Shown piece after piece: positions 32,901 through 58,821 of a stretch of 64,000 nucleotides of DNA (positions are counted from its first letter, which is position 1; each line of letters begins with the position of its first letter). The position numbers were made by a program, and so were the translations under genes. The stretch is from Gammaproteobacteria bacterium (GTDB lineage Bacteria; Pseudomonadota; Gammaproteobacteria; JADZEE01). The DNA lies in contig JADZEE010000044.1 in the NCBI GenBank assembly GCA_020850735.1, positions 1 through 64,000 on the forward strand, written 5' to 3'. The notes below the pieces were generated by a model. The model was not told the DNA's origin. It did no database searches and saw only the letters and a program-made list of their open reading frames with translations.

Positions 32901-32944
32901 GTGCGCCTCCTGCCAATGTGCTCGCGGCGCGCCGGCTGCGGCGC

Positions 32945-38818: not shown

Positions 38819-40000
38819 TCATGCGGGGGCGGTCTTTACCGCGCGCGCTGCAGCGGCGGCGCGCGTGCGCACGCCGGCAAACAACAGCAGGCTCGCGATG
38901 AGGCACGCACCGGCCAGCAGACGTGCGGGCGCGTAGCTCTCGCCGGTGACCAGCAGTCCCGCCAGCGCCGGTCCCACGGACACACCGGCGGCCTGAAACG
39001 CGAGCGCGAGCACGAACAGCCGCCCGCCGCGATCCACGCTGGCGATGATGCCGAGCTGGTACGGCACCGCGAACAGCCAGAAGAACTGGAACAATCCGGC
39101 AGCCAGCATGAACGCGAGCGGTGTCGCACGGTCGGCGAGCACGAGCAGTGCGAGTCCCTTGGCAATCACGGCCAGGGCGAGCGGCGCGATCCGTCCCAGA
39201 CGCACGCTCAGCGCGCTCGCAGCCAGCGCCCCGAGCAGGCCACACACCACCGCCGCACCCAGCGCCTTGCCGACTACGGCCGCCTCGAGACCCGCCGCGG
39301 CGCCCATGCGCTCGATGAAGGCCCAGATCGCCCCGAGCGCGACGTGGTAGACCGCGGTGGCCGTGAGTGCGATCAACACCGGCCGCGCGGGGGTCCCGGC
39401 GCCGCCGGACGCTGCTACCGGCACCCGGCCGGCGCGCGGCAACCCCGACGTCGCGGTTGCGATCGCCAGCGTGAGCCCGGCGAACGCGAGCACCACGCCG
39501 TCGTAACCCCAGCGTGCGACGATCGGCGGCAAGACCTGGAAGCCGATGAGCCCGATGAGGATGGGTGCGGCCATGGCCAAGCCGAAGATCCGATCCGGAT
39601 TGCGCGTATCGCTGAGCATCACCAACGCCAGTCCGGTCGCCGCGCCTTCCCCCAGGCCGGTCACGAAGCGTACTGCCAGCAGCCCGGGAAGGACGTCCAC
39701 GCAGGCCGAGGCCAGGTTGCCGGCGACGACGACCAGCAGTGCGGCACGGGCCGCGCGCCGCCAGTCCACCCGCCGCACCCACAGCGGCGCGAGCAGCGCG
39801 GCACAGAACACCCCGGCGAGGTCCGATGCGGCGAGCAGCCCGAGCTGGCGCGGTTGCAGACCAAAGCTCGCCGCCGCGGCACCGACCACCAGCGGCAGGA
39901 CCTTGAACAGCATGGGTCCCGTGACCGACAGGCACAGCGCGGCCAGGACCGGCAACGTGCCGCCCACATAACCGGCGCCGCTGGCGGCGTTCGTGTTCAA
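38819..40000 (-). CDS. Major facilitator superfamily transporter
   Basis: A 393-residue inner-membrane protein with about twelve hydrophobic segments and a charged central loop (RAGRVPVAASGGAG, near 190). MFS hallmarks such as the basic loop after helix 2 (LWVRRVDWRRAARA) are visible. It probably imports or exports a pathway substrate. The start is uncertain: a TTG at 40000 is the first usable codon after the upstream stop, without a strong ribosome site. It is the last gene of the molybdopterin oxidoreductase series before leader element B. Confidence 0.82.
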   Translation of the reverse strand: MNTNAASGAGYVGGTLPVLAALCLSVTGPMLFKVLPLVVGAAAASFGLQPRQLGLLAASDLAGVFCAALLAPLWVRRVDWRRAARAALLVVVAGNLASACVDVLPGLLAVRFVTGLGEGAATGLALVMLSDTRNPDRIFGLAMAAPILIGLIGFQVLPPIVARWGYDGVVLAFAGLTLAIATATSGLPRAGRVPVAASGGAGTPARPVLIALTATAVYHVALGAIWAFIERMGAAAGLEAAVVGKALGAAVVCGLLGALAASALSVRLGRIAPLALAVIAKGLALLVLADRATPLAFMLAAGLFQFFWLFAVPYQLGIIASVDRGGRLFVLALAFQAAGVSVGPALAGLLVTGESYAPARLLAGACLIASLLLFAGVRTRAAAAARAVKTAPA

Positions 40001-40078
40001 GGCCGGGTTGCGATCGTGGACGCAGCGTGCGGCGCGGGCCGCCAGCCGCGGTTCGTTGCCTGGCGCACGCCGGAACCC

Positions 40079-41365: not shown

Positions 41366-41370
41366 GGCGC

Positions 41371-41943
41371 TCACGGCGAGAGGTAGTGGATCTGTGGCCG
41401 GGCGCCCGAGCCCTCGGCCAGCACCCGGGCCTCGCGGGTAGCGAGCAGCTCGTGCACCTTCGACCGGGGGTCGTCGAGATCCCCGAAATGGATCGCCCGG
41501 GTCGGGCACACGACCTGGCACATGGGCGCCTGCTGCTCGGCGAGCCGGTGTTCGCAGGCGCTGCACTTGTCTGCGGTGCCGGTCTCGGCGTCGAAGGCCA
41601 GCGCGTCGTAGGGGCACTCCTCGCCGCAGCGCTGGCAGCCGATGCACTTGTCCTTGTCGAGCATCACCAGTCCGTCCTCGTCGCGGCGCCACAGGGCGCG
41701 CGTCGGGCAGGCCTGCACGCACGGCGCGTCGGCGCAGTGCTGGCACATGGTCGGCAGCCAGTACATGTCCAGGTTCGGGTAGCTGCCTACCGGTTTCTCG
41801 AGCTGCAGGTTGTGCTGGGAGTCGAACACCTTGAGGCGAAACTGACCGAGGGGAACGTGGTTCTCCATTTTGCAGCCGACCACGCAGGTGTCGCAGCCGA
41901 TGCAGCGCCACAGATCGATGACAAAGACGTATCGCTTGCTCAT
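41371..41943 (-). CDS. Four-cluster ferredoxin-type electron-transfer subunit
   Basis: A 190-residue iron-sulfur protein like the B subunits of DMSO-reductase-family complexes. Four cysteine groups fit four [4Fe-4S] clusters: CIGCDTCVVGC, CQHCADAPCVQACP, CIGCQRCGEECP, and CSACEHRLAEQQAPMCQVVCP. It has no signal peptide and stays cytoplasmic. The ATG overlaps the upstream molybdopterin oxidoreductase stop (ATGA), so it is translationally coupled and is surely the electron-transfer partner of that enzyme. No membrane anchor subunit follows; instead a flavoprotein reductase does. Confidence 0.92.
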   Translation of the reverse strand: MSKRYVFVIDLWRCIGCDTCVVGCKMENHVPLGQFRLKVFDSQHNLQLEKPVGSYPNLDMYWLPTMCQHCADAPCVQACPTRALWRRDEDGLVMLDKDKCIGCQRCGEECPYDALAFDAETGTADKCSACEHRLAEQQAPMCQVVCPTRAIHFGDLDDPRSKVHELLATREARVLAEGSGARPQIHYLSP

Positions 41944-44285
41944 GTCTGCCTGCCGTGCCGGATCGCCGGTTCCGTGCCGATCCCGTGCCGCCCGCCTGCC
42001 GGCGCGCCGGCGCGCGCGACTTGCACCAGGACATCCCATACCGGGAAGTTGGTCTCGAGGATGGCGTCCTGAACGGGGTTCGGGGTGAGGTGACTCAGAT
42101 CGTTGTAGTGCCCGTGCGCGAAATCCCGGGGCCACCAGCCCTGTGGCAGGTTGAGCATGCCGGGCCGCACCGCCTCGGTCAGGGTCACGCGCACCTCGAC
42201 CCTGCCGCGGTCGTTCCATACGCTGACCGGATCGCCATCCCGGATCCCGCGCTCGCCGGCGTCGCGCGGATGCATCTCCAGCCGCGGCCCGGGCAGCAGC
42301 TCGCGGATCCAGGCGAGGTTGGTGTGCTGACTGTGGACGGTGTGCATCGGGTGGCTGGTCATGAGGGTCAGGGGGAACTCGCACGCGCGGGCGGCGCGAT
42401 TGCTCTCCAGCGGTTCAGCGTGCACGAGCACTGCCTGGCCGAACTCGCGCAGCCGCTCCGTGTACAGCTCGACCCGCCCGGACTCCGTGGGGAAACGCTG
42501 ATCGGCGAACGGCACGTGCGGCCGCGGCAGATCCAGCCGCGCCACCCCGTCGCGAGCGAGGCTGTCCCAGTCCAGGGCGCGCACTGCCGGATCGCCCGAC
42601 TGCTCCAGGATCTGGCGGCAGGATTCTTCCGCGCTCTGGCGCCAGTCCTCGCCCCGACCCACCCGCTCGCACACGCCGGCGAAGATGTCCCAGTCGTTCT
42701 TCGACTCACCGATCGGCGCGATGGCCCGCCGGCGCAGCTGCACGTAGAGGTTCTCGGCACTCGGCACGACGTCCAGATCGTCCTCGTAATACGAGACACA
42801 GGGCAGGACGATGTCGGCGTACTGCGCCGCCGGGGTCATGACCTGCTCGGTGACGGCGAACAGCTCCAGCTTCGGCAGCGCCTCGCGCACGAAGCGGTCG
42901 AAGTTCGGGCTTTGAGTCCCGAAGCCGTAGCCGGCGAGCCACAAGCTCTTGACCGTGTAGGGTTCCCCGCGCGCGATGGTCTCCAGCATGCGCGTGCCCG
43001 GCAACGTGTGGGCGCGCCGGCCACCCGGCTCCAGCCAGTCCCCGGGCACGTTGAAGAACACCCGCAGCATGGCGCCATCGGACCAGGACACGCCCGCGTG
43101 GCGCCTGCCGATGTTGCCGCACACCGCGGCGAGCGTAGTCGCGGCGCGGAAGGCGAGATGGCCGTGACGGTAACGCTGCGCGCCCTGGCCGAGCCAGATC
43201 GCCGCCGGCTGCGTGGTTGCGTATTCACGCGCGAGGTCGCGGATGACCGCGGCCGGCACCTCGCAGATCCCGGCGGCCCGCTGCGGCGTGTACGCCGCCC
43301 AAGCCTCGCGCATGATCGCGAACGCGCTGCGGCAGCGCACTCGCCTGCCGTCGGCGATCTGCACCGTGATGTCCGCGGACAGCCGCGGCGCGCCTGCCTC
43401 GTCCACCGGACAAGTCTCGCCGCCGGTGCTGTCACAAACCACAAAGCGCGCGTCGCCCACCGGCGTGAGATCGCGCATGCGCAGCAAGGCACCGGTGTCC
43501 TCGCGCACGAGGAATGGCGCGTTGGTATGGTGCAGGAGGTAATCGGCGTCGTGCAGCCCGGCGTCGAGGATCACGTTGAGCATGCCCAGGATCAGGGCCG
43601 CGTCGGTACCGGGCCGCGGCGACACCCATTGATCGGCCTTGGTCGCCGTGCGCGAGTAACGCGGGTCCACCACCACCAGCCGCGCCCCGGCCTCCAGCGC
43701 ATCGAACAGGAAATGCATCTCGCTGTGCGCGGTGTCGGCGACATTGCGCGCGAAGATCACGATGAGGCGGGCACCGACCAGGTCCTCCCACTCGTGGCCA
43801 GTGGCGAACACGCCCAGGGTGGGCAGGAACCCCATCGCGCAGCCGAGATCCCCCATCAGTCCGACGTAGGTGAACCAGGTGCCCTCGAGGCAGTTCGCGA
43901 TCCGGTTCGGCGCCATCACCGCGCGCACGCCGTAATTGCCGGTCATGGTCGTCCAGGCGTTGGCCCGCTGGCCGTGGCGTGCGGCGATGCGGGTCAGCTC
44001 CGCGGCGAGGTGATCGAAGGCCTCGTCCCAGGAGATGCGCTCGAAACGCCCTTCACCGCGCGCACCGACCCGGCGCAGCGGGTGGCGCAGCCGGTCCGGA
44101 TGCGTCACGCGCTGCATCGCCATGGCCATGCCCTTGAGGCAGATGCGCCGGTAGCGCGGGTCCGGAAAATCGGCCGGTTCGATTTTCAGGATGCGCCCGT
44201 CGCGCACGTGCGCGTTGACGCCGCAGGTACCGCTGCAGTTCGGCGAGCAGACCGTGCGCACCACCCGCGCCGCCGGCGTGCTCAC
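41940..44285 (-). CDS. Molybdopterin oxidoreductase, cytoplasmic paralogue 2
   Basis: A 781-residue bis-MGD oxidoreductase. The N-terminal [4Fe-4S] motif is complete: CSPNCSGTC, with a fourth cysteine in RICLKG (Cys13, 17, 21, 49). Cys149 in GDLGCAMG is a possible molybdenum ligand (inference). The C-terminal domain has FPLTLMTSHPMHTVHSQHTN and PGMLNLPQGWW. There is no Tat signal. It is a close paralogue of the next gene upstream along nearly its whole length. GTG 44285 is preferred to a TTG that would overlap the upstream gene. Substrate unknown; acetylene hydratase-like or hydroxylase-type chemistry cannot be told apart by eye. Confidence 0.87.
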   Translation of the reverse strand: MSTPAARVVRTVCSPNCSGTCGVNAHVRDGRILKIEPADFPDPRYRRICLKGMAMAMQRVTHPDRLRHPLRRVGARGEGRFERISWDEAFDHLAAELTRIAARHGQRANAWTTMTGNYGVRAVMAPNRIANCLEGTWFTYVGLMGDLGCAMGFLPTLGVFATGHEWEDLVGARLIVIFARNVADTAHSEMHFLFDALEAGARLVVVDPRYSRTATKADQWVSPRPGTDAALILGMLNVILDAGLHDADYLLHHTNAPFLVREDTGALLRMRDLTPVGDARFVVCDSTGGETCPVDEAGAPRLSADITVQIADGRRVRCRSAFAIMREAWAAYTPQRAAGICEVPAAVIRDLAREYATTQPAAIWLGQGAQRYRHGHLAFRAATTLAAVCGNIGRRHAGVSWSDGAMLRVFFNVPGDWLEPGGRRAHTLPGTRMLETIARGEPYTVKSLWLAGYGFGTQSPNFDRFVREALPKLELFAVTEQVMTPAAQYADIVLPCVSYYEDDLDVVPSAENLYVQLRRRAIAPIGESKNDWDIFAGVCERVGRGEDWRQSAEESCRQILEQSGDPAVRALDWDSLARDGVARLDLPRPHVPFADQRFPTESGRVELYTERLREFGQAVLVHAEPLESNRAARACEFPLTLMTSHPMHTVHSQHTNLAWIRELLPGPRLEMHPRDAGERGIRDGDPVSVWNDRGRVEVRVTLTEAVRPGMLNLPQGWWPRDFAHGHYNDLSHLTPNPVQDAILETNFPVWDVLVQVARAGAPAGGRHGIGTEPAIRHGRQT

Positions 44286-44313
44286 GGGATTGCGACCCCG
44301 GCCAGCCACGGGC

Positions 44314-46647
44314 TCACGCCGCCGCCTCGCGCGCAACCTCGACCAGGATGTCCCACACCGGGTAATTGGTCTCGATGATCACGTCCTGGACCGGGTTGCG
44401 GACGATGTGCCCGAGATCCGCGAAGTGCCCGGCGACGAAGTGCTCGCGCCAGAAGCCCTGCGGCACCACCACCATCCCCGGCTTCACGCCCTCGCTGAGG
44501 CTGGCGTGCAGGCTGAGACTGCCGCGATCGTTGTACACGCGCACCCGATCGCCCTCGCCGATGGCGCGTGCCCGCGCGTCTCGCGGGTGCATTTCCAGCC
44601 GCGGCTCGGGAAGCTGCTCGCGGATCCAGGGCAGCATGGTGTGTTGCGAGTGCGTGGAGTGCACGTGCTTGGGCGAGATGAGCACCAGCGGCAGCCGCCG
44701 GGCCAGCGGCCGGCGGCTGCTCTCCAGCGGCTCCTCGTACACGAGCACGCCCTGGCCGAAGGGCGCCAGCCGCTCGGTATACAGCTCGATGCGGCCCGAG
44801 GGCGTCGGGAAGCGCAGGTCGGCGAACGGCACGTGCGGCCGGGGGATCTCGACGCGCGCCACGCCGTCGCGGCGCAGAGCTTTCCAGTCGATGGCGCGGA
44901 TGACTGGATCATCATGGTGCTCGAGCACGAAGCGGCAGACCTCTTCGTTGCTCATGCGCCAGTGCTCGCCTTCGCCGAGCCGCTCGCACACGCCGGCGAA
45001 GATCTCGTAGTCGTTCCTCGACTCCCCGACCGGCGGGATCGCCCGCTGGCGCAGCTGCAGGTACCAGTGTTCGCCGCCCGCCACCAGGTCCATCTCCTCC
45101 TCGTAATAGGACACGCACGGCAGGACGATGTCGGCGTGGCGCGCGGCCGGCGTCATCAACTGCTCGGTGACCACGAACAGCTCGAGCTGCGGCAACGCCT
45201 CCTGCACGAAGCGGTCGAAATTCGGGCTCTGTGAGCCCATGCCGTAGGCGGTGATCCACAGGCTCTTGATCGGATAAGGATCGCCGCGCGAGATGATGTC
45301 CAGCATGTGCACGCCGGGCAGCGAGTGCCCGCGCCGCCCCCCGGGCGCCATCCACTCCTGCGGCGGGAAGAAGGTCAGGCGCATGTGCGCGCCGTCCAGG
45401 CAGTTCACACCCGCGTGAGGCTTGCCGATGTTGCCGGTGAGTGCGCCGAGGGTGACGTAAGCGCGGTGCACGAGATGGCCATGGTGATAACGCTGCGGCC
45501 CGGCGCCGGCCCACAACCAGGCCCGATCGCTGCGCGCGTACTCGCGGGCGAGGTGGCGTATGGTCCCGGCCGGCACCTCGCAGATCTGCGCCGCGCGCTC
45601 CGGCGTGTAGGGCGCCCATGCCCCGAGCATGAGCTCGAAGGCGGTGCAGCACTCGACCGGTCCGCCCGGCCCGAGGTCGATGCGCCAGCGGCCGCGCAGC
45701 TCGGCGTTGCGCGCCGAGGCCGCGGGACACGGCAGGCCGCGCACCGCGTCCCAAACCACGAAGGCCTCGCCGTCGGCGCCGATATCGCGCGCGCGCAGCA
45801 GCGCCCCCGAATCGCAGCGGACCAGGAACGGGGCGTTGGTGTGCTGGCGGATGTAGTCCTCGGCGATCAGTCCCTCGGCGACGATGACGTTGATCATGCC
45901 CAGCACCAGGGCCGCGTCGGTGCCCGGGCGCGGCGACACCCATTCGTCGGCTTTGGCCGCCGTACGCGAGTAGCGCGGGTCCACCACCACCACCTTCGCG
46001 CCCGCCTCCATCGCATCGAAGAGGAAGCGCATCTCGCTGTGATCGGTGTCGGCCGCATTGCGGCCGAAGATGATGATGTACCGCGCGTGCTTCAGATCGG
46101 CGAGATCGTTGCACGTGCTGCCCACCCCGAGCAGCGGCAGGTAGCCCATCGCGCAGTTCAGGTCGCCCATCATGCCGCCGTGAGTGAGCACAGTACCGCC
46201 GAGACAGTTGGCGATGCGCTCGGGCACGGTGGTCGCCTTGAAACCGTAGTTCCCGGACATGGTCATCCAGGCGTTGGCGCGTGCGCCGTCGCGCGCGCGG
46301 ATGCGGCCGAGCGCCGCCGCGATGTCATCGAGGGCCTGTTCCCAGGAGATGCGCTCCCACTCGCCGGCGCCACGGGCGCCGCGCCGGCGCAGCGGGTGAC
46401 GCAGGCGATCGGGATGTTCGATACGCTGCATCGCCATGGCGATGCCCTTGAGGCAGATGCGCTCGAAACCGGGATCGGGGAACGCGGCCGGCTCGATCTT
46501 GACGATGCGGTCGTCCTTGACCCAGGCGTCGATGCCGCAGGTGCCGCTGCAGTTCGGCGAGCACACCGTGCGCACCACGCGGTCGGGCTGGCTCCGATCG
46601 GCATCGGCACGAACGGCGAACGGCACTGCGGACTCGCGACCTGTCAC
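44314..46647 (-). CDS. Molybdopterin oxidoreductase, cytoplasmic paralogue 1
   Basis: A 777-residue paralogue of the 41940-44285 protein. It keeps the same landmarks: CSPNCSGTC with RICLKG, GDLNCAMG as the possible molybdenum ligand site, HSEMRFLFDAMEAG, DPRYSRTAAKADEWVSPRPGTD (quoted in part: VDPRYSRT), and the C-terminal TNYPVWDILVEVAREAAA (in part). No Tat signal. The start is uncertain: GTG 46647 has GGGGG just upstream, but GTG 46653 or 46731 is possible. It heads the operon that continues with paralogue 2, the ferredoxin, the flavoprotein reductase and the transporter. Palindrome site 5 lies about 125 bases upstream. Confidence 0.85.
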   Translation of the reverse strand: MTGRESAVPFAVRADADRSQPDRVVRTVCSPNCSGTCGIDAWVKDDRIVKIEPAAFPDPGFERICLKGIAMAMQRIEHPDRLRHPLRRRGARGAGEWERISWEQALDDIAAALGRIRARDGARANAWMTMSGNYGFKATTVPERIANCLGGTVLTHGGMMGDLNCAMGYLPLLGVGSTCNDLADLKHARYIIIFGRNAADTDHSEMRFLFDAMEAGAKVVVVDPRYSRTAAKADEWVSPRPGTDAALVLGMINVIVAEGLIAEDYIRQHTNAPFLVRCDSGALLRARDIGADGEAFVVWDAVRGLPCPAASARNAELRGRWRIDLGPGGPVECCTAFELMLGAWAPYTPERAAQICEVPAGTIRHLAREYARSDRAWLWAGAGPQRYHHGHLVHRAYVTLGALTGNIGKPHAGVNCLDGAHMRLTFFPPQEWMAPGGRRGHSLPGVHMLDIISRGDPYPIKSLWITAYGMGSQSPNFDRFVQEALPQLELFVVTEQLMTPAARHADIVLPCVSYYEEEMDLVAGGEHWYLQLRQRAIPPVGESRNDYEIFAGVCERLGEGEHWRMSNEEVCRFVLEHHDDPVIRAIDWKALRRDGVARVEIPRPHVPFADLRFPTPSGRIELYTERLAPFGQGVLVYEEPLESSRRPLARRLPLVLISPKHVHSTHSQHTMLPWIREQLPEPRLEMHPRDARARAIGEGDRVRVYNDRGSLSLHASLSEGVKPGMVVVPQGFWREHFVAGHFADLGHIVRNPVQDVIIETNYPVWDILVEVAREAAA

Positions 46648-46769
46648 TTGCACCCCCGCCAGCGCGCCACGTCCGGCACGCCGCCAACCGCAGCGTATGG
46701 CCTGGTCGCACACCTCGTCAATGCGGCGCACACGCGCATCGGGCTACACCAGCATTTTCGTGCAAGTGC

Positions 46770-46786
46770 AATGAATTCCGGTTATG
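46770..46786. promoter_or_regulatory. Regulon palindrome site 5: AATGAATTCCGGTTATG
   Basis: The GTTATG half is perfect, the other half keeps only part of CATAAC, and the T-N11-A spacing holds. It is upstream of the molybdopterin oxidoreductase operon (minus strand). With site 6 it is one of the two weakest matches. Confidence 0.4.
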
Positions 46787-46882
46787 AGGCAGTGACGCGA
46801 CACCCGGCAATCGGGACTCGCGCCCAAGCTGCCGGCGGTCGATCAGCCCGCACCGATCACGGCTGCGTACGTTCACGTGGGC

Positions 46883-47860
46883 TCACGGCTGCTCATCCTC
46901 CGGCCGCAGCCCCGCCAGCGCACTGCTCGCCCGCCACAGCCGGAGCGCGCTGTCGCCGTCCCGGGCCTGCAGTGATGGCATCTGTTGCCCGGCGCCCGCG
47001 AAATAGCGTCCGCTGACGCGCTCGAGCGCCGGGTCCAGAAGCATCGCGGCCAGCTGCGAGCCGGCGCGTTCGGGTGTCGACATGCCGGGCATCACGCGGG
47101 CGAGCGGCGCCAACAGGCCGCCGAACAACGCCCGCGCGAGGAGCCCGTGGGCGCGGCCGAGATCCGTTGCGGGCATGAATCCGGGATCGAAGGCGTTGAC
47201 CGTAATCGGCGCTCGCGCGGTGCTCCGGCCGCTGCGCTCCAGGCGCCGGCACAGCTCGTGGACGAACAGCAGGTTGCACAGCTTGGAGGTCGCGTACGCC
47301 CTGCGCGCGGCGAGGCCGGGTCCCGAATCCAGAAGTGGATCCAACTCGGGGTGGGCGAGCCGCATCGCGTCGGCGTCGCGCGGTGGCGGCATGCCGGTGC
47401 GCCGCGCGGGATCGTGGCTCGCACTGCTCACCACCACGATGCGAGCGGGCGCCACGAGGCGTCCGAGCAGCAGGTGCACGAGCAGGAAGTGTCCGAGATG
47501 GTTGACGCCGAACGTCAACTCGTAGCCGTCGGCCGTGCGCGGGCCGATGCGCGCGAGCTGCACACCGGCGTTGCACACCAGCGCCCGCAGGGGCGGTAGT
47601 CCGCGCGCCGCAAACGCGTTGGCGAACTCGCGCACGGACTCCAGCGCGCCGAGGTCGAGCGCCATCGCCTCCACGGTCGGGTTGCCGCTGGCGCTCGCGA
47701 TCGCGGACACCGCGCGCAGCGACTTGCGTTGATCGCGGCCCGCGATCAGTACGTGCCAGTGCGCGCCCGACGCGGCGACCGCTCGGGCGCAGTGCAAACC
47801 CAGCCCGCCGTTGCCGCCGGTGACGATGAGCGTGCGCCGCGCTGGCCCGGGGGTGCTCAG
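46883..47860 (-). CDS. Short-chain dehydrogenase, retinol-dehydrogenase-like
   Basis: A 325-residue SDR of the retinol/protochlorophyllide-reductase-like branch. The cofactor motif TGGNGGLG begins near residue 14, NAGV lies near 96, SSASHD holds the catalytic serine and YATSK the Tyr-Lys pair. No ATG, GTG or TTG lies between the upstream stop and the Rossmann strand. The CTG at 47858-47860 overlaps the cytochrome stop as CTGA, copying the ATGA/GTGA coupling seen at other junctions here, so a CTG start (or translation continuing by re-initiation) is proposed. Substrate unknown; hydrophobic alcohols or ketones are usual. Confidence 0.8.
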   Translation of the reverse strand: MSTPGPARRTLIVTGGNGGLGLHCARAVAASGAHWHVLIAGRDQRKSLRAVSAIASASGNPTVEAMALDLGALESVREFANAFAARGLPPLRALVCNAGVQLARIGPRTADGYELTFGVNHLGHFLLVHLLLGRLVAPARIVVVSSASHDPARRTGMPPPRDADAMRLAHPELDPLLDSGPGLAARRAYATSKLCNLLFVHELCRRLERSGRSTARAPITVNAFDPGFMPATDLGRAHGLLARALFGGLLAPLARVMPGMSTPERAGSQLAAMLLDPALERVSGRYFAGAGQQMPSLQARDGDSALRLWRASSALAGLRPEDEQP

Positions 47861-48192
47861 TGCCGTTGCGGTCGAGGCGCTTCCTCGCCCGAGAGCCGGC
47901 TGTAGAAGGCCACGATGTCGTCGATGTCTTCGTCGCTGAGCGTCTTGACCAGCGGCTGCATGATCGGATCTTTGCGCGCACCGTCGCGGAACGCCTCGAT
48001 CTGCTTGCGCAGATAGCCCTCGCGCTGGGCGGCCAGGTTGGGCCACAGATCGTTGATGCTGATCCCGTCCTTGCCGTGGCAGGCGTGGCAGCTGCCGGAC
48101 TTACGCTCGCCGGCGACCGGATCGCCGGCCGCGGCGACGTGACCCGCGCACGCGATCAACACGGCGGCGAGCATCGACCGGACGGCGGTCAC
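47857..48192 (-). CDS. Small monohaem cytochrome c
   Basis: A 111-residue exported protein with a signal peptide (MLAAVLIACAGHVAAA, after a short basic N-terminus) and one haem c motif CHACH followed by GKDGISINDLWPNLAAQ. The distal methionine is probably in DPIMQPL. It is a class I cytochrome of the cytochrome c553/c4 half type and resembles each half of the dihaem protein at 54681-55244. GTG 48192 is chosen because it gives a basic n-region; an ATG at 48174 is possible. It is the fifth gene of the operon that begins at 51094. Confidence 0.85.
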   Translation of the reverse strand: MTAVRSMLAAVLIACAGHVAAAGDPVAGERKSGSCHACHGKDGISINDLWPNLAAQREGYLRKQIEAFRDGARKDPIMQPLVKTLSDEDIDDIVAFYSRLSGEEAPRPQRH

Positions 48193-48235
48193 CGGCCCGG
48201 ACCCGCGGGTTCGCCGCGTGCGAGACGTACTGCCG

Positions 48236-48805
48236 CTATTTCGGCAGATCATAATCCAAGGTCACTTTGTAGGTGATCGGCTGGCCCGGCGGATCCTGCT
48301 GGATGCTGACCTGTCCGCGCGCACCGCGGTAACTGCCGGTACCGCCGGTGACGGCGATCGACAGCGGCACGTCCTTCTCCATCGCGTTCAGATCGATGTT
48401 GCCGTCGGCGACCAACTGGCCGTCGGCCATGATGTAGGAAAACTGGCAGGCGGAGTTGAACGGGCCGCCGGCGCCCATCGTCACGTCGCCCTTCCATGGG
48501 CCGTCCGGGCCATGATCGATGGTGACGCAGATTCCGCGCATCATGCCGATTTCCTCGTTGTCCTCCCATCCGTACAATCTGTTGTTGAGGAACACGTAGC
48601 CACCGGCGCCGCGACCGGGTCCGATCGGGTGGGGATTCTTCAGGTCGTCGATTACCAGTACGGGATGATCCTTTTCGTCGTTCCACGAACCGGAGTAGGT
48701 CACCGCGCTGATCTCGCGCAGCACCAGCGTCTCGGCGTGCACGCCAACCGCACTTGCTGCCAGCGCCGCCGCGGCACCGGCCAATACAATGAACCTGGTC
48801 TTCAT
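48236..48805 (-). CDS. Exported allene-oxide-cyclase/dirigent-like barrel protein
   Basis: A 189-residue secreted protein. The signal peptide (KTRFIVLAGAAAALAASAVGVHA) ends near residue 25. The mature part is a beta-rich domain whose GGTGSYRGARGQVSIQ segment is the signature of the allene oxide cyclase/dirigent barrel; SACQFSYIMADGQLVADG precedes it. Plant members guide stereospecific coupling or cyclisation; bacterial members are poorly known. AGGAG precedes a run of three ATGs, and the third (48805) has the best spacing. It lies between an exported protein of unknown family and a cytochrome c gene. Confidence 0.75.
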   Translation of the reverse strand: MKTRFIVLAGAAAALAASAVGVHAETLVLREISAVTYSGSWNDEKDHPVLVIDDLKNPHPIGPGRGAGGYVFLNNRLYGWEDNEEIGMMRGICVTIDHGPDGPWKGDVTMGAGGPFNSACQFSYIMADGQLVADGNIDLNAMEKDVPLSIAVTGGTGSYRGARGQVSIQQDPPGQPITYKVTLDYDLPK

Positions 48806-48860
48806 CATCATCTCCTGCGTGTGCCAGCAAACGCGGGGCGTTCGGGCGCCCCGATAACCC

Positions 48861-49499
48861 TTAATCTGTTTTTGGCGCCGGCCTGCCGGCAAGCCAGGCC
48901 ACCCCGCCCCAGTTGGAGAACTTCAGCGCGAGCAGGCCGGAGTCGAGACCGCGCTTGACCAGTGCCGCGTCGGTGAGTGGCTGCCATTCATCCCCGAAGT
49001 TGATCGCGTAGGCGAGCGGCGCGCCGGCGAGGCTCTGCTCGGGCATCGCCCGCGTCCGCACCGTCTCAGCAGTCGCGCGTGGCCCCGCAATCACCCAATG
49101 CCCGAAGGTATCTACCGGCGCGTCTGCGCCCGCGTAGCTCGCGAAAGTGTCGTCGTGAGCGGGAATGACGATCTCCCCGATCGGCCGGCCGTGCTCGTCC
49201 AACAACGGCCTACCAGTCGCCGGATCGATGGCCGGGCGGCGCACCTCGGGTCCGTAGGAGTCGCCTTCGTCGACCGAACCTATCAGGTACACGTCAACGT
49301 CCGCATACGCCGCCGACGGCTCGTTGGGCCCCTTGCCCCCCGCGATCTGCGGCATCAGGACGAAGACGTCGACGGTCCGGCCCCCGACCCAGACCCTCTT
49401 GGTCAGGTCGAAGCCTTCGCCACCGTCGGCGTACACGACGGCTCCCGTCAGCGCGACCGCTGCGCCGAGCAGTAATCCTGCAATCCTGCACCCAGTCAT
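48861..49499 (-). CDS. Exported protein of a three-member local family, copy 1
   Basis: A 212-residue secreted protein with a signal peptide (residues 1-25, ending near YADG). I do not recognise a named family, but it clearly shares a pattern with proteins at 55294-55998 and 59711-60391: a middle IPAHDDT (compare IPPHQGV, LPPHQDT), a G-W-V-x-x-GP segment, and the C-terminal RGLDSGLLALKFSNWGG (compare YGLHKGLLRLRFFGA, YGLKSGLLALEYFDIGG). GGAGAGG precedes ATG 49499. It sits between an acyl-CoA dehydrogenase gene and the dirigent-like gene. Confidence 0.72.
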   Translation of the reverse strand: MTGCRIAGLLLGAAVALTGAVVYADGGEGFDLTKRVWVGGRTVDVFVLMPQIAGGKGPNEPSAAYADVDVYLIGSVDEGDSYGPEVRRPAIDPATGRPLLDEHGRPIGEIVIPAHDDTFASYAGADAPVDTFGHWVIAGPRATAETVRTRAMPEQSLAGAPLAYAINFGDEWQPLTDAALVKRGLDSGLLALKFSNWGGVAWLAGRPAPKTD

Positions 49500-49555: not shown

Positions 49556-50779
49556 TCAGATGCCGCGCATCATGCGCAGCGTGTTGAGCATGTTCAGCAG
49601 CAGCATGTCGCGTGTGCCGTCACACGCTTCACCGATCCAGGCGTCGTTCAGGAAGCGCCCGGTCGCATACTCGGCGGCGACGCCGTAACCGCCGAGGATC
49701 TTCACGGCGCGCTCGGCGTTGCGGATGGCGGCATCGACCGCGAAGGTCTTCGCGGCGGGTGACTGCATCAGCGCGACACCCATGTCGCCGGAATCGGCCG
49801 CGGCCGCGAGCTTCCAGACCATCAGCCGGGCCGCCTCGACGTCGACCATCATTTCCGCGAGCTTCAGGCCCACCGCCTGGTGGTTGATGATCGCTTGCCC
49901 CCAGGACACGCGCTGTGTGGCGTACTCGAGCGCGTACTCGAACGCGGCGCGGGCCATGCCCACGTAGCAGGCAGCCAGACCCGCGGCCAGGTAGGGGATC
50001 ACCTCCATGAAGAACAACCCGAAATTCGCGCCTTCCTCGCCGATACGATTCGCCACTGGTACCTTTACATCGTCCAGGTAGACCTCCGCGTGCATGGCCG
50101 TCTTCCAGCCGATCAACTCCGTCTTCTTGCCCACCGTCAGACCGGGCGAGTCCGCCGGGACGAAGAACATCGAGGTGCTCTCGTAGCCCGGCTTGCTCAG
50201 ATCGGTCCGCGCCATGATGAAGAACGACCTGGCGGCACCTGCATTGGTCGAGAAGCCGGCCTTGCTGCCGTTGAGCACGTAGTGATCCCCATCGCGCCGT
50301 GCGGTCGTTTTCAGACCGATCTTCGGGTCCGGGATCGGGCACAGGGAATCGGCGCCGGCCACGTTGGCTTCGCTGCTGGCGCTGGCGAGCACATAGTCGT
50401 CGGCAGCCGCAATCTGTGTGAGCCAGTGTTCGCGCTGCGCGTCGTTGCCGCCCTTCATGATGATGACGGGCGCGGTCATGCTGACGTTGAAGTAGGACGC
50501 GGCGATGCCCATGTCCACCGCGCCCATCTCCTCCATGATGACGGCGTTGTCCAGGCAGCCGCCGCCAAGTCCGCCGTACTGCTCGGGGATGAGCAGCTTG
50601 TGAAAGCCGAGTTGGCAACCCTTGGCATATACCGGTCGGCACAACTCCCACGGCGTCTGCCCCTGGCTGCGGTCCATGCGCGCGATCGCCTCGGCGGCCT
50701 GCCGGATCTCCTTGCCCGCAAAGTCCCGCGCCGTCTTCTGGTACAGCGCCTGTTCGTCACTGAGAGTGAAATCCACCAT
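49556..50779 (-). CDS. Acyl-CoA dehydrogenase, atypical catalytic residue, copy 2
   Basis: A 407-residue FAD acyl-CoA dehydrogenase with DFTLSDEQALYQKTARDFAG at the N-terminus (quoted in part), ASSEANVAGADS at the flavin site and KILGGYGVAAEYATGRF near the C-terminus. At the catalytic base position it reads CDGTRD, so Asp387 replaces the usual glutamate of YEGT. It is related to the enzyme at 20164-21348, which has the same exchange. ATG 50779 is the natural start. It is the second gene of the operon controlled by leader elements C and D. Confidence 0.88.
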   Translation of the reverse strand: MVDFTLSDEQALYQKTARDFAGKEIRQAAEAIARMDRSQGQTPWELCRPVYAKGCQLGFHKLLIPEQYGGLGGGCLDNAVIMEEMGAVDMGIAASYFNVSMTAPVIIMKGGNDAQREHWLTQIAAADDYVLASASSEANVAGADSLCPIPDPKIGLKTTARRDGDHYVLNGSKAGFSTNAGAARSFFIMARTDLSKPGYESTSMFFVPADSPGLTVGKKTELIGWKTAMHAEVYLDDVKVPVANRIGEEGANFGLFFMEVIPYLAAGLAACYVGMARAAFEYALEYATQRVSWGQAIINHQAVGLKLAEMMVDVEAARLMVWKLAAAADSGDMGVALMQSPAAKTFAVDAAIRNAERAVKILGGYGVAAEYATGRFLNDAWIGEACDGTRDMLLLNMLNTLRMMRGI

Positions 50780-50857: not shown

Positions 50858-51094
50858 TCAGCTCTTCAGCGCCCGGAGCTTTGCCAGCACCATGGGCTGA
50901 ATGGGCTTGGGCACGGTCTCGACGACGTGCCGCTCGAGCAGTTCCTCGGTCAGGGTGGTCACGTCGTTCGCCGCAACCCAGCCGTTGAAGGAGGCGAGCG
51001 CCCGATCCTTCATGAAGGCCGGCGTATCCGCCAGCATCCGGTCAAACATCGCCCGGCTGTTGCCTTCCCAGCCGAGCTCGTCGATCGCCCGCAT
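50858..51094 (-). CDS. Small PCP_red-like protein
   Basis: A 78-residue cytoplasmic protein starting with ATG 51094, which has GGGGGAG six bases upstream. The sequence (MFDRMLADTPAFMKDRALAS, then VTTLTEELLERHV) follows the pattern of the PCP_red domain, a small helical module at the C-terminus of protochlorophyllide reductase subunits and in stand-alone proteins of non-photosynthetic bacteria. Its role in the latter is not established to my knowledge. It is the first gene after leader elements C and D and is followed after 78 bases by the acyl-CoA dehydrogenase. Confidence 0.6.
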   Translation of the reverse strand: MRAIDELGWEGNSRAMFDRMLADTPAFMKDRALASFNGWVAANDVTTLTEELLERHVVETVPKPIQPMVLAKLRALKS

Positions 51095-51136: not shown

Positions 51137-51176
51137 AAAAAAAAAAGCCTCCTTCGCCCTGCGAGGCGAAAGAGGC
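51137..51176 (-). terminator. Leader terminator C
   Basis: Minus strand: a 12-bp stem with one G-U pair (51165-51176 with 51147-51158) and a six-base loop, followed by ten T residues (51137-51146). It lies 42 bases upstream of the PCP_red-like gene and reads toward it. Confidence 0.9.
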
Positions 51177-51188
51177 TTCGTTACCTCC
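51171..51188 (-). promoter_or_regulatory. Leader element C: ANTAR-like hexaloop hairpin (gene-proximal)
   Basis: GGAGGUAACGAAGCCUCU on the minus strand: a 6-bp stem (one terminal G-U) with loop AACGAA. It shares its 3' arm with terminator C. There is no separate promoter; it is the second of two tandem elements read from the promoter of element D. Confidence 0.75.
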
Positions 51189-51226
51189 GGTTCGGGTCGC
51201 GTGCTCGCGCCCGACGTACAAATGCA

Positions 51227-51264
51227 AACGGCGCTCCCCACCCGCGGGCAGGGAAGGCGCCGTT
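51227..51264 (-). terminator. Terminator-like hairpin D (weak)
   Basis: Minus strand: an 8-bp perfect stem AACGGCGC / GCGCCGTT plus four inner pairs, followed only by TTTGCATTTG instead of a T run. It occupies the same place relative to hairpin D as the good terminators do in A-C, but may pause or terminate weakly. Confidence 0.5.
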
Positions 51265-51308
51265 ACCTTCTGCTGACGATGATGGCTCCCGTACGGGCGC
51301 GCTGTCAA
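51253..51308 (-). promoter_or_regulatory. Leader element D: promoter plus ANTAR-like hexaloop hairpin (distal)
   Basis: Minus strand: TTGACA (51303-51308), 18 bases, CATCAT (51279-51284), then GAAGGUAACGGCGCCUUC (51253-51270), a 6-bp stem with loop AACGGC (A at 1, G at 4). Compared with A-C the stem has an A-U in place of a G-C pair at the second position, a compensatory change. The promoter lies 50 bases after the ANTAR regulator stop. Confidence 0.75.
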
Positions 51309-51357
51309 GCACCAGTCGGTGATCGCGGGCAAGCCTCGCGATCGCGCACCAAGCGCT

Positions 51358-51921
51358 TCAATTCGGTGTGCCGATAATGGTCTCGGCAACGTCGCGCATG
51401 GGAATGTTGCTCTCCATGCTCAGCTTCTGCATGAACCGGAACGCCTGCGCCTCGCTGAGCCCTTCGCGATCCATGATGAGACCCTTGGCCCGATCCACCA
51501 GTCGCCGCGTCTCGAGCTGCTGCTTCAGCACCGCTACGCGCCCGCCCAGATGAGACTCGCGCAGAAAGTGGGTGACGGCAAGTTCGATTGCCGGTGCGAT
51601 GTCCTTCTCCCTGAACGGCTTGGTCAGGTAGGCCATCACGCCGGCATCGCGTGCCGGCAGGATCAGATCCGGGCTCGAGAAGGCGGTGAGCACGATCACC
51701 GGATACTCGGCGCTGATCTCACGCGCGACGGCGATGCCGTCCAGAGCCGGCATCTTGATGTCGACGATGACGACGTCCGGCCTGTGCCTGGCGACCAGTT
51801 CCAGCGCTTGCACGCCGTCTTTCGCCTCCGCAACGACGTCGTGCCCGATGCCCTGGAGCAACTCGCGCAGGTCGCGGCGAATGATCGGCTCATCGTCGGC
51901 AATCAGTATCCGGAAGCTCAT
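51358..51921 (-). CDS. ANTAR-domain response regulator (RNA-binding antiterminator)
   Basis: A 187-residue response regulator. The receiver domain (residues 1-120) has the acidic pair in IADDEP, the phosphoacceptor aspartate in VIVDIKMP, the switch threonine in VLTAF and the lysine in YLTKPF. The C-terminal ANTAR domain (about 125-185) shows QLETRRLVDRAKGLIMDREG and AFRFMQKLSMESNIPMRDVAE. ANTAR domains of AmiR, NasR and EutV bind hairpins with six-base loops in leader RNA and stop terminator formation. Four such hairpins occur in this window, two directly downstream of this gene. Its start (ATG 51921, with GGAGG nine bases upstream) overlaps the kinase gene by 32 bases. Confidence 0.92.
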   Translation of the reverse strand: MSFRILIADDEPIIRRDLRELLQGIGHDVVAEAKDGVQALELVARHRPDVVIVDIKMPALDGIAVAREISAEYPVIVLTAFSSPDLILPARDAGVMAYLTKPFREKDIAPAIELAVTHFLRESHLGGRVAVLKQQLETRRLVDRAKGLIMDREGLSEAQAFRFMQKLSMESNIPMRDVAETIIGTPN

Positions 51922-53086
51922 ACCCGCCATCCTCCCCGTCCTGCAGCGCCGGGAACACCACGCGCGCTACCGTGCCGTGCGAGCCGCTCAGCACGAATTC
52001 GCCCTTGAGCTCGTCCTCGACCAGCGTCGCGACGATCGTCAATCCGAGATTCGCATCGCGGCCGATGTCGAAACCATCCGGCAGGCCCGCCCCGTCGTCG
52101 ATGACGGCGACTTCAATGCGCTCGTCCGCTTGCTGCACACCCACGTGTACGCGCCCCCCCTCCGAGCCGCTGCGGCTGTGCTGGATCGCGTTCTGCACCA
52201 GTTCGTTGACGACCAGCGCGAGCGACGTCGCCTCCCGCGACGTCAGCATGACCGTCGGCCCGACGATTTCCACTGTCACCTGCGGCGGCGACGGCATCTC
52301 CGCAGTCTGCAGGCTGACGATACGCGAGACGAGCTGGCCGAAGTCCACCATGCCGATCTCGCCCTGCGCGAGGGTATCGTGCACCAGCGCGATGCTGAGG
52401 ATGCGGTTGATGCTGTCCTCGAGCGCCTGCTCCGCGGACAGGCGGTCCAGCCGCCGGATCTGCATCCGCAGCAAGCCGGCCACGGTCTGCAGATTGTTCT
52501 TTACGCGATGATGGATCTCCTTGTAGAAGGTGCTGATCCCCTCCAGCGAGCGGTTCTCGGCGAAAATCGCCATCTGTCCCGCGAGACTGCGAAGAAATTG
52601 CATATTGCGCGCCTGGTCACGGCGCTGGAAAAACCACTCCGAACCGTCGCGCGAGTACAGGTTCAGCGCGCCCCGCCGCTCGCCTTTGTGCTCCACGGGC
52701 AGGGACACGAAGCTCAGGTCGAAGTTCTCCGGAAGCGAGACGGCGCACGGGGTCTGCTCGCGCGCAGGGCACACGAGCGGCCTGCCGTGCTCCAGCTGCC
52801 AGCGTGCCAGTTTCTCGTCGGCCTCCAACTCCGCCCACCCCGGCTCCAGCTCCGGCACGACATCCATGGCCTCCTTGACCAGGATCCGGTGCGTCCGATC
52901 CACGATCCACACGCTGACCGCAGCGACATCGAGCAGTGTGCGGAGCTGACGGGCGACCTCCGGATAGCCGGAGCGCACGCCGGTGGACATGGCCAACTCC
53001 TCACCGATCCGGTTCAGCAGCGCGATGTGATCGACCCGGCCACTGGATCGCTGCTCCTCAGTCCTCCGTGATCTTGCGCGCTTCAT
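51890..53086 (-). CDS. GAF-domain sensor histidine kinase (HisKA_2/HWE type)
   Basis: A 398-residue soluble kinase without membrane segments. A GAF sensor domain covers about residues 20-175, ending near GALNLYSRDG. The HisKA_2 dimerisation segment has its phosphoacceptor histidine in KEIHHRVKNNLQTVAGLL, and the HATPase follows with ELVQNAIQHS, DDGAGLP and NLGLTIV. Such kinases typically pair with ANTAR regulators, and the next gene overlaps this one. A cytoplasmic ligand or redox state is presumably sensed by the GAF domain; what it binds is unknown. ATG 53086 is the start. Confidence 0.92.
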   Translation of the reverse strand: MKRARSRRTEEQRSSGRVDHIALLNRIGEELAMSTGVRSGYPEVARQLRTLLDVAAVSVWIVDRTHRILVKEAMDVVPELEPGWAELEADEKLARWQLEHGRPLVCPAREQTPCAVSLPENFDLSFVSLPVEHKGERRGALNLYSRDGSEWFFQRRDQARNMQFLRSLAGQMAIFAENRSLEGISTFYKEIHHRVKNNLQTVAGLLRMQIRRLDRLSAEQALEDSINRILSIALVHDTLAQGEIGMVDFGQLVSRIVSLQTAEMPSPPQVTVEIVGPTVMLTSREATSLALVVNELVQNAIQHSRSGSEGGRVHVGVQQADERIEVAVIDDGAGLPDGFDIGRDANLGLTIVATLVEDELKGEFVLSGSHGTVARVVFPALQDGEDGGYELPDTDCRR

Positions 53087-56017: not shown

Positions 56018-58627
56018 TCAGAACTGCCAGCGCAGCGTAGCACCGCCTGTTCGCGGCCGGATGGTCGACAGGAATGGGAAGCCGAAGCCACCCGTGTCGC
56101 CCGAGGCGGTCACGCCGAATTCGTCGAGCAGGTTGGTAATGAAGGCCTCGGCCCGCACGCTGCCGGTGATGTCGATGCCAGCGCGCAGATTGAGCTGGTG
56201 GTAGTTGCCGATCTCGAACGGGATCGGGGCCACGTAGTTATCCGGATCCAGATCCAGCGGCAGCGGCTCCTTCTCGCTCACGTAGTGCCACTCGAAGCGC
56301 CCCCAGGCCGGCAGCGCGGCAACGTTGAAGTCGTACTGAAGGGCTACGAACGAAGTCACGTCCGGTGTGAGCGGAATGGTATCGCCCTTGCTCACCAGCG
56401 GCCCGGTCGGGGTCATGATGGTGTCTTCGAATTCCGCGTCGACGTAGCTGAACGAGGCGTCCAGGCGCAGCCGCTCGGTCAGCAGCGCGCTCACCTCGAG
56501 CTCCATCCCCATGCTGCTCGCGTCGCCGAAGTTCGCGACCGCGGGAAACGTGCACTGGCTGACGCCGGAGCCGAAGGGGTTGAAGGCGCTAAGAACAAAG
56601 GTCTGCTGCACCTTGCTCCAGTCGATATAGAACAGTGCGCCGTTGACCTGCAGGCGCCGATCGAACATGCCGAGCTTGGCGCCGAGCTCGTAATTCCACA
56701 GCGTGTCCGGGTCGACGTCCGGTAGCCCGCCCGGAAAGCCGGCGTTCGCCAGCTCCACGCCGCAGCTCGCCAGCGGCACGTCGATGTTGACGATACCGGT
56801 GCGAAAGCCCTTGGAGGCACTCGCGTAGTAGAGCTGATCGTCCCCCGGCTTCCAGGACAGCTCGAACCTGGGCGTGAAGATCTCGTCGTCGTTGGCACCA
56901 GACTGCGAGCCCTGCGCGAAACCGAACTGGAAACCTTTGCTGACCGAGCTGAACTCCTGGTCCAGGGTCAGCCAGCGGAAGCTGACGGCTGCATGGATGG
57001 TCTCGGTCAGGTCGAACCCGATCTGGCCGAAGAAGGCGATCTGCTCGTCGGTGAACTCGCCCCGGTTGTCCGCCAGGGTGGTCGTGGTCGGCGGCAACGG
57101 CGCGAAGGGACCGGGGATCCCGGAGAGCACCACGTCGGTCCAGTAGCGCAGGTCCAGGCCGCTCTGGTCCACGCCCAGCACCCGGTGACGCTGGTCGATC
57201 TCCTGGTAGAAGAACCCCGCCAGCCAGTCGACGCGGCTATCGGTATCGTTGGAGGTCAGGCGCAGCTCCTGGACCCAGACCTCGGGATTGTCCCAGCGGT
57301 TGGAGACCAGCGGGACCGTATCGAACACGCCGGTGATCCGGATCGAGGCCATGCTCAGATCCGAGGCCAGGAACTCGGTCCGTTCCCAGTAGGAGGTGGA
57401 CGAGGTAAGCGTGGCGAAATCGAAATCGTACTCGAGCACCAGGTTGTACAGGTGCATGTCGTCCTTCGTGCCGGCGCGCGCCGCCTCGAAGTGCTCGTAG
57501 TCCCGGAAGTCGGTGGATGCGCCGAAGTTGGGCGTCGGCGGCCCGCCGAGGGGATCGGGCGAGAACGCGGGCACGTATTCGGCGAACGAGCTGCCGAAGG
57601 TTTCGCGATCCTCGATGGCGATCATCACGTCGGCGCTGAAGCGCTCGTTCGGCTGCCAGCTGAGCATCAGCCGGCCGCCGTTGATGTCGGTCGCGTTGGT
57701 GTCCTCCGTCCGGCTCAGCGGCGGCGCCGAGAAGGCGGCCGCGGCGGCGGGATTGGGGTGGATGCCGAGGACGCCCGGTGGTCCGCCCGGCACGATCACC
57801 GGCGGTCCCGGCGGCGCGGGCGGCGGTGCCGGCGGGATCAGCACCACGTTCGCGGCGGGCAGGGTCGAGCCCGGCGGTGCCGCGATCGGTCCGGGGAAGA
57901 AACCGGCGACGGCGATGTAGGGCGGCGCGACACCGGGTGCCGCGAGCGAGGCCATGCTCGGCCCGCCGCGGAAGGCGTTATCGTACCAGCCGCTGTCGTC
58001 GCTGGTGTACAGCGCCAGGCGGGCGCCGAGCACGTTAGTGATGAGCGGAACGTTCAGCACGACGTCACCGTTCCAGCCACCGGCGCCGTCACCGGTGTAC
58101 GAGCCGGTGACGTTGACCTTGGCCTGGAACGCGTCCAGCACGGGTTTCGCCGGAATGTTGCGCACCGCGCCGCCGAGTGAATTCGAACCGAACAGCTGCC
58201 CCTGCGGGCCGCGCAGCACCTCCACCCGCTCCAGGTCGACGAGCCAGAAATTGTAGCTGGAATTGACGTTGCGCCCGGTATGGATGACCGGCACCTCACC
58301 GAGGTAGATCGCCGTGGTCGGCGACATCTGCGCGTTGATACCGGTGCCGACGCCGCGGAACTTCACTTCGCCGCCGAAGCCGGTCGAATCGACCACAGCC
58401 GCGCCGGGGATGGTCGTGAGATAGCTGGCAAAGTCATGGATGCCGCGCTGATCCAGCATCTCAGCGCTGAGGGCGGTCACGGCAACCGGCACGTCACGCA
58501 GAGTCTGCTGGCGTCGCTGGGCGGTGACCACGAGTTCCTCGATCTGCGCCTGCGCGGGTACCGCACACAGACCGCTGAACAACGTGATCACGAACCGCGC
58601 CGCTCGCCTCGTTCGGATCCTTTCCAT
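56018..58627 (-). CDS. TonB-dependent outer-membrane receptor 3
   Basis: An 869-residue receptor. A signal peptide ends near PAQAQ, the TonB-box-like IEELVVTAQR follows, the plug has LERVEVLRGPQGQLFGSNSLGG, and the barrel ends with RWQF. Around residues 270-320 lies an unusually proline-, glycine- and alanine-rich insertion (LIPPAPPPAPPGPPVIVPGG). The ATG at 58627 directly follows a GGGGGG-rich ribosome site and gives a normal signal peptide, so it is preferred to an ATG 126 bases upstream. It is divergent from a GntR/FCD regulator, with a palindrome between them. Confidence 0.9.
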   Translation of the reverse strand: MERIRTRRAARFVITLFSGLCAVPAQAQIEELVVTAQRRQQTLRDVPVAVTALSAEMLDQRGIHDFASYLTTIPGAAVVDSTGFGGEVKFRGVGTGINAQMSPTTAIYLGEVPVIHTGRNVNSSYNFWLVDLERVEVLRGPQGQLFGSNSLGGAVRNIPAKPVLDAFQAKVNVTGSYTGDGAGGWNGDVVLNVPLITNVLGARLALYTSDDSGWYDNAFRGGPSMASLAAPGVAPPYIAVAGFFPGPIAAPPGSTLPAANVVLIPPAPPPAPPGPPVIVPGGPPGVLGIHPNPAAAAAFSAPPLSRTEDTNATDINGGRLMLSWQPNERFSADVMIAIEDRETFGSSFAEYVPAFSPDPLGGPPTPNFGASTDFRDYEHFEAARAGTKDDMHLYNLVLEYDFDFATLTSSTSYWERTEFLASDLSMASIRITGVFDTVPLVSNRWDNPEVWVQELRLTSNDTDSRVDWLAGFFYQEIDQRHRVLGVDQSGLDLRYWTDVVLSGIPGPFAPLPPTTTTLADNRGEFTDEQIAFFGQIGFDLTETIHAAVSFRWLTLDQEFSSVSKGFQFGFAQGSQSGANDDEIFTPRFELSWKPGDDQLYYASASKGFRTGIVNIDVPLASCGVELANAGFPGGLPDVDPDTLWNYELGAKLGMFDRRLQVNGALFYIDWSKVQQTFVLSAFNPFGSGVSQCTFPAVANFGDASSMGMELEVSALLTERLRLDASFSYVDAEFEDTIMTPTGPLVSKGDTIPLTPDVTSFVALQYDFNVAALPAWGRFEWHYVSEKEPLPLDLDPDNYVAPIPFEIGNYHQLNLRAGIDITGSVRAEAFITNLLDEFGVTASGDTGGFGFPFLSTIRPRTGGATLRWQF

Positions 58628-58692
58628 GTCCCCCCCCTCGAGCCGCCGCCAGCATGCCCTGGTGCCGGACTGACCAGCGTACGGCTTGCATA

Positions 58693-58712
58693 TGTCGAAA
58701 TTAATGTTGACA
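58693..58712. promoter_or_regulatory. Imperfect palindrome in the TonB receptor 3 / GntR divergent region
   Basis: TGTCGAAATTAATGTTGACA, an A+T-rich inverted repeat centred on ATTAAT with perfect TGTC/GACA ends (14 of 20 positions symmetric). It lies 65 bases upstream of the receptor start and 109 bases before the GntR start. A divergent GntR/FCD regulator commonly binds such a site. Confidence 0.5.
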
Positions 58713-58821
58713 ATAATGACGCCAACGCTGGCATACAGCCTTCGACAAGTCAAGCAGGGGGATGCGGCTGCTTGCGGATGAGGGAGCGCGTTCGAACAAT
58801 GGCGAACAGCCCACGGAGACG

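Follow-up and report, generated by a model that had tools for sequence, protein, structure and literature searches.

A candidate ANTAR antitermination system with single-hexaloop leaders before TonB receptor, cytochrome and acyl-CoA dehydrogenase genes in a gammaproteobacterium

Introduction

ANTAR antitermination is described for the EutV/EutW pair of Enterococcus faecalis and its eut leaders (PMC3369931, PMC8934654). A sensor kinase is paired there with a receiver-ANTAR regulator, and the leaders carry a hexaloop with A at position 1 and G at position 4 (A1/G4), one arm of which overlaps an intrinsic terminator. Published ANTAR targets are described as dual hexaloops (PMC3369931; PMC8934654; PMC8164766). 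Both EutV hairpins are called essential (PMC3369931), and the dimer is reported to have to contact each of the two hairpins in turn, though the source of this statement also revises the minimal binding motif to one hexaloop and anticipates single sites (PMC8934654). Nitrogen metabolism is given as the main theme of ANTAR attenuation (PMC3369931). For the mycobacterial pair PdtaS/PdtaR, the kinase is described with a GAF domain and links to redox, iron and lipid metabolism are reported; few ANTAR target RNAs of actinobacteria are reported to lie upstream of a terminator (PMC11537054, PMC8164766).

Here we analyse a window of 64,000 nucleotides (positions 1 to 64,000 of contig JADZEE010000044.1, assembly GCA_020850735.1, a gammaproteobacterium). 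Like the eut system, it encodes a kinase and a receiver-ANTAR regulator and carries A1/G4 hexaloops with an arm that overlaps an intrinsic terminator. In contrast to the eut motif with its two hexaloops, there is one hexaloop per terminator in five of the six leaders described below, and the target genes are not ethanolamine genes. Because two hexaloops are described as needed for EutV, the window system would be a variant of ANTAR antitermination. Its kinase shares the GAF domain with PdtaS. Unlike PdtaS/PdtaR, its kinase and regulator genes are adjacent, and the domain search gave no PAS match in the kinase, again unlike PdtaS. Other gammaproteobacterial ANTAR regulators, which we call NasT-like (our own label, not an annotation), likewise have a hexaloop overlapping a terminator near the ANTAR gene. 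They fall into a separate group of the regulator tree (100/100), and most of their examined leaders (15 of 17) have a first hexaloop.

We consider it very probable that the kinase at 51890-53086 and the regulator at 51358-51930 control three units by ANTAR antitermination through single hexaloops. It also seems rather probable, with less assurance, that this is a PdtaR/EutV-type system in Gammaproteobacteria which uses minimal attenuators, with a single hexaloop at or near the first mRNA base, and jointly controls uptake across the outer membrane, electron transfer and acyl-CoA oxidation. The computed part of the case is the alternative folds, the conservation together with orthologous genes in a distant relative, the regulator family, the RNA-contact residues and the lack of a detectable first hexaloop in five of the six leaders; phosphotransfer, RNA binding, readthrough, transcript starts next to the hexaloop and the sufficiency of a single one are what we infer. 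Such a system would extend ANTAR attenuation from nitrogen metabolism to a conserved set of TonB receptor, cytochrome and acyl-CoA dehydrogenase. Neither a single-hexaloop attenuator nor an ANTAR-TonB regulon was found in the titles and abstracts of the surveyed papers on ANTAR hexaloops, EutV, NasT, PdtaR and Geobacter.

Results and Discussion

Kinase, regulator and target genes

The genes of the proposed system are as follows, with G086 being a relative described further below.

51890-53086, minus strand: sensor kinase with GAF, HisKA_2 and HATPase_c domains (domain search)
51358-51930, minus strand: response regulator with receiver and ANTAR domains, PdtaR/EutV type (domain search, tree)
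50858-51094, minus strand: small open reading frame of 78 aa, no family found (Pfam, NCBIfam)
49556-50779, minus strand: acyl-CoA dehydrogenase (72% identity to its counterpart behind the G086 leader)
37733-38644, minus strand: c-type cytochrome behind leader B (domain search)
34927-37374, minus strand: TonB-dependent receptor behind leader A (44% identity to its counterpart behind the second G086 leader)
34311-34991, minus strand: cytochrome b561 (reading frame as listed, true start perhaps internal), 51% identical to the G086 one
33568-34260, minus strand: uncharacterised protein of 230 aa, with 54% identity to the likewise uncharacterised product of the gene in the corresponding position of the G086 operon

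The ANTAR domain of the regulator (Pfam PF03861) scores 79 bits against a cut-off of 27.3. The small reading frame at 50858-51094 had been taken for a PCP_red protein in an earlier reading of the sequence alone; this label finds no backing, as searches with Pfam up to E 10 and with NCBIfam up to E 0.001 gave no such domain. The proposed regulon would comprise the acyl-CoA dehydrogenase unit with tandem leaders D and C, the c-type cytochrome with leader B, and the operon of TonB receptor, cytochrome b561 and 230-aa protein with leader A. Judging from these targets, the system may serve to take up and oxidise an organic substrate, or it may be linked to iron or redox state as reported for PdtaS (PMC11537054).

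The minus strand at 28715-34260 and 38819-48892 further encodes two DHDPS-like genes, a GMC oxidoreductase, an NAD(P)-binding protein, an MFS transporter, a dioxygenase-type ferredoxin reductase with an N-terminal extension of ~220 residues, a molybdopterin oxidoreductase of the DMSO-reductase family and an allene oxide cyclase-like protein. Judged by its genes, this island looks catabolic. More TonB receptors are encoded at 56018-58753 and at 21754-24111, the latter sharing 40% identity with that of G086, and the reading frame at 20164-21444 is 46% identical to the G086 acyl-CoA dehydrogenase.

Leader hairpins and their alternative folds

51221-51270, minus strand: leader D, hexaloop 51253-51270 (GAAGGTAACGGCGCCTTC), loop AACGGC, overlaps a weak terminator-like stem
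51138-51188, minus strand: leader C, hexaloop 51171-51188 (GGAGGTAACGAAGCCTCT), loop AACGAA, overlaps a 16-pair terminator, heads the unit of the reading frame 50858-51094 and the acyl-CoA dehydrogenase
38710-38760, minus strand: leader B, hexaloop 38743-38760 (GGAGGTAACGAAGCCTCC), loop AACGAA, overlaps a terminator, precedes the c-type cytochrome gene
37416-37467, minus strand: leader A, hexaloop 37450-37467 (GGAGGTAATGAAGCCTCC), loop AATGAA, overlaps a terminator, precedes the TonB receptor operon

The sequence-only reading had described four minus-strand hairpins of the form GGAGGU-loop-GCCUCC or a variant, with six-base loops carrying A1 and G4. All four are present at these coordinates with such loops. 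On folding, each 18-mer forms a stem of 6 bp, whose last pair is U-G, closed by a six-base loop, at -6.1 to -8.7 kcal/mol. For the full window leaders, the favoured fold is the overlapping terminator, with -27.4 to -31.5 kcal/mol and terminator z-scores of -2.5 to -4.3; leader D has an imperfect terminator stem and a weak T run. In all four leaders, the 3' arm of the hexaloop doubles as the 5' arm of the terminator and therefore the two forms exclude each other, as had been proposed. Imposing the hexaloop fold raises the energy by 8 to 12.5 kcal/mol for the window leaders and by 10 to 13.5 kcal/mol for the two G086 leaders. With the hexaloop fold 8 to 13.5 kcal/mol worse than the terminator in solution, a bound protein would be needed to hold the hexaloop. 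Rfam gave four matches in the window at E up to 5, all below the gathering scores and none at the leaders.

The kinase would sense a signal and phosphorylate the ANTAR regulator. The active regulator would bind the hexaloop as the first mRNA bases emerge and keep the hairpin folded. Thus withheld by the bound hexaloop, the 3' arm would be missing from the overlapping terminator and RNA polymerase would read through. As leaders D and C directly follow the kinase-regulator genes, their terminators may also end that transcript; the first G086 leader is placed likewise behind its kinase-regulator genes.

Promoter-like sites stand directly upstream of two of the hexaloops.

51279-51308, minus strand: promoter-like site TTGACA-18-CATCAT, stops 8 bases before hexaloop D (consensus match only)
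37477-37505, minus strand: promoter-like site TTGACT-17-CATCAT, stops 9 bases before hexaloop A (consensus match only)

No site passed the promoter scan for leader B or either G086 leader; in leader B and in the first G086 leader, a TTGAC can be seen 39 to 41 bases upstream of the hexaloop. At 37556-37565 on the minus strand, there is a fourth GGAGGTAAYG 10-mer that has no matching 3' arm. It lies 88 bases upstream of the start of the leader A hexaloop and upstream of the leader A promoter-like site, and it is possibly the remnant of a leader or of a first hexaloop.

The arm sequence itself offers another explanation. Since the arm reads GGAGG and an ATG follows closely in leaders A and F, it could be the Shine-Dalgarno sequence of a leader peptide, with translation and not an ANTAR protein controlling the terminator. 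However, leaders B, C, D and E have ACG at the place of the ATG, the gap between GGAGG and ATG in leader A is just two bases, and the linkage to the regulator gene would be a coincidence. We give this explanation almost no credence.

Chance expectation and covariation

Scanning the window for hexaloops that have a stem of 6 bp or longer and overlap a terminator gives five sites, four of which have A1/G4 and are leaders A-D. In 100 dinucleotide shuffles of the window, the A1/G4 sites average 0.03 with a maximum of 1 (against four in the real sequence), and sites with any loop average 0.66 with a maximum of 4 (against five). The 18-base pattern alone is weaker evidence: with up to 3 mismatches the window contains 5 matches where 1.66 are expected, and 2 of 100 shuffles reach 5. 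In the own genome, up to 1 mismatch recovers A, B and C only, and 2 mismatches add copy D and three other places. With up to 3 mismatches, there are 56 matches versus 76 for the reversed control, so that the loose pattern is meaningless genome-wide.

Support from covariation across six leader sequences is thin. Both sides change in one of the six stem pairs, and the score is reached by 22 of 500 shuffles. Slides of +2 and +3 outscore the real register, yet they pair only 67 and 72% of the cells compared with 97%. The double change from G-C to A-U at stem pair 2 of copy D, pointed out in the sequence-only reading, is real and recurs in a G086 leader.

The own genome and the relative G086

The own genome assembly comprises 4.99 Mb in 170 contigs (94.96% complete, 5.89% contamination). 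By Pfam, it has one ANTAR domain, that of the window regulator. A model built from the four window leaders, R1, gives just leaders A-D as matches in this genome at E up to 0.01 with strict filters.

Scoring the best 8 or 9 candidates per genome at E 1e-28, we find a close orthologue of the regulator (65% identical) in G086 alone among 369 genomes of the class. The lineage is rare: by the same scoring, 2 of 398 Pseudomonadota genomes, the own one and G086, have it at E 1e-28, followed by G601 at 1.9e-26 with 36% identity. With the G086 regulator as query, G086 is again alone among 352 genomes around it (best 8 or 9 candidates per genome). Many genomes are common to these draws of 369, 398 and 352. 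One of four genomes in the order of G086 has the regulator, and the order of the window consists of one genome. G086 is the single relative found with the same system. The G601 regulator was rejected as a relative, as it falls outside the PdtaR/EutV group in the tree and its stretch L153 gave no leader.

Leader-like sequences beside ANTAR genes of relatives had been named as a check on the proposal, and in G086 they are found. The top match of R1 outside the own genome (39 bits) starts 60 bp past the stop codon of the G086 regulator; the match ranking third by E-value, with 28 bits, is found 1.5 kb downstream of this orthologous ANTAR gene. Both stand before orthologous target genes. The gene order of kinase, regulator, leader and acyl-CoA dehydrogenase is that of the window, with the kinases 47% identical. 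The second leader precedes an NmrA-like gene followed by the TonB receptor, cytochrome b561 and a 213-residue protein, which are 44, 51 and 54% identical to the genes behind leader A. Altogether, A1/G4 hexaloops overlapping an intrinsic terminator number four in the window and two in G086. With a GC content of 43% in the G086 stretch versus 68% in the window, mere DNA kinship is an unlikely cause of the likeness of the leaders.

This conservation also bears on whether the leaders could simply be intrinsic terminators that belong to the upstream genes and have spread as a repeat, with the hexaloop complementarity having no regulatory role. A, B and C are very alike, and D and C stand directly behind the kinase-regulator genes, where a terminator is expected. 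But the 5' arm, superfluous for a terminator, is complementary to the 3' arm in all four leaders and in G086, the own genome has no further R1 match, and the leaders hold their position before orthologous genes in G086. Plain terminators are thus a very unlikely explanation.

Beyond G086, R1 at E 0.01 mostly finds other hairpins, and the case for ANTAR control therefore rests on rank, position and synteny. Four of the 44 outside matches at E up to 0.01 have an ANTAR domain within 2 kb: G086 contributes two, and G052 and G250 contribute one apiece. The other 40 have none at that distance. Those in G052 and G250 are within 300 bp of ANTAR genes and carry hexaloop-terminators. ANTAR genes are no commoner in genomes with a loose match (9 of 36) than overall (114 of 369), and weak matches in G274, G089, G321 and G087 were discarded as plain GC-rich hairpins by eye. 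The second-best outside match (32 bits), in G367 (L117 around 1501-1549), is a 3-bp A1/G4 hairpin before a strong terminator; a search of that genome gave no ANTAR match.

Regulator family and RNA-contact residues

By sequence, the solved proteins nearest to the window regulator are Rv1626 (PdtaR) of mycobacteria with 184 bits and EutV with 122 bits. In a tree of 45 rows, with a midpoint root for drawing only, the window and G086 regulators pair at 99/93 inside a 10-row group at 100/100. This group also holds Acidimicrobiales and other actinobacterial regulators, one from Acetoanaerobium and one from Cetobacterium that adjoins eutP. The remaining 35 rows, from Pseudomonadota, form the NasT-like group. 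Nine of 54 matched loci were excluded from the tree because the match started past query residue 25 or was too short. The regulator thus belongs with the PdtaR/EutV types and not with the ANTAR regulators usual in Pseudomonadota.

A polA gene adjoins the regulator gene of Microbacterium (annotated) and is also read from the sequence behind the L031 gene. A polA neighbourhood is typical of PdtaR. The Acidimicrobiales PdtaR-like loci L031-L034 contain some hexaloop-like hairpins, none of which has an overlapping terminator.

The EutV residues named as RNA contacts are R142, K143, K147, K149, E160, Y164 and M172 (PMC8934654). By hand alignment, the corresponding residues are R, R, R, K, E, F and M in the window and R, K, R, K, E, Y and M in G086. 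In the window regulator, 143 and 147 are conservative changes and Y164 becomes F, so that most contacts are kept.

One hexaloop or two

The main difference from described leaders is the number of hexaloops. One per terminator, as proposed, is what we see in A, B, D and the two G086 leaders: neither the preceding 90 bases, searched for stems of at least 3 bp, nor the preceding 110 bases, searched for stems of at least 4 bp, contain a first hexaloop. C differs in having D 82 bases upstream. Controls were 17 hexaloop-terminator leaders beside other gammaproteobacterial ANTAR genes, 16 from 29 loci with the best-scoring ANTAR matches (13 of the 29 gave no leader in the stretch examined) and one from G052 (L122). 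With a detector for A1/G4 hexaloops of at least 4 bp in the 110 bases upstream, 15 of 17 controls have a first hexaloop (shuffles predict 1.1) versus one of six leaders here (shuffles predict 0.5). The Fisher p of this contrast is 0.003 at 4 bp or more, and 0.009 and 0.018 at 5 or 6 bp, values that are optimistic because some controls are closely related (L162, L163, L174). In a by-eye set from another draw of loci, 12 leader-like places picked from a longer list, ten have a first hexaloop and two in Marinobacter have none.

These numbers bear on ordinary dual-hexaloop attenuation, in which the first hexaloop would be non-canonical, further upstream or supplied by the D-C tandem, and the AmiR/NasR/EutV scheme would be unchanged. 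The spacing of D and C would fit this scheme, and the transcript starts are predicted positions only. Two of the 17 controls, L156 and L159, show no detectable first hexaloop either, so that the detector may miss some. Yet the same detector is positive in the other 15 and negative in five of the six leaders here, and in A and D the promoter-like site would leave only 8-9 bases before the hexaloop. We regard dual attenuation as unlikely, though a serious contender, and prefer single-hexaloop control. If true, these minimal attenuators would make the first hexaloop dispensable for ANTAR antitermination. Whether it is needed can be tested directly on such natural leaders, whose one hexaloop adjoins the promoter.

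The hexaloop-terminators of L156 (813) and L159 (1303), on the minus strand, may be further single-hexaloop leaders or detector misses. The leaders at L060 4456 (Methylophaga) and L083 2418 (another gammaproteobacterium) have the core GGUAAYGAAGCC in common with the leaders here; they are dual and lie near another ANTAR type.
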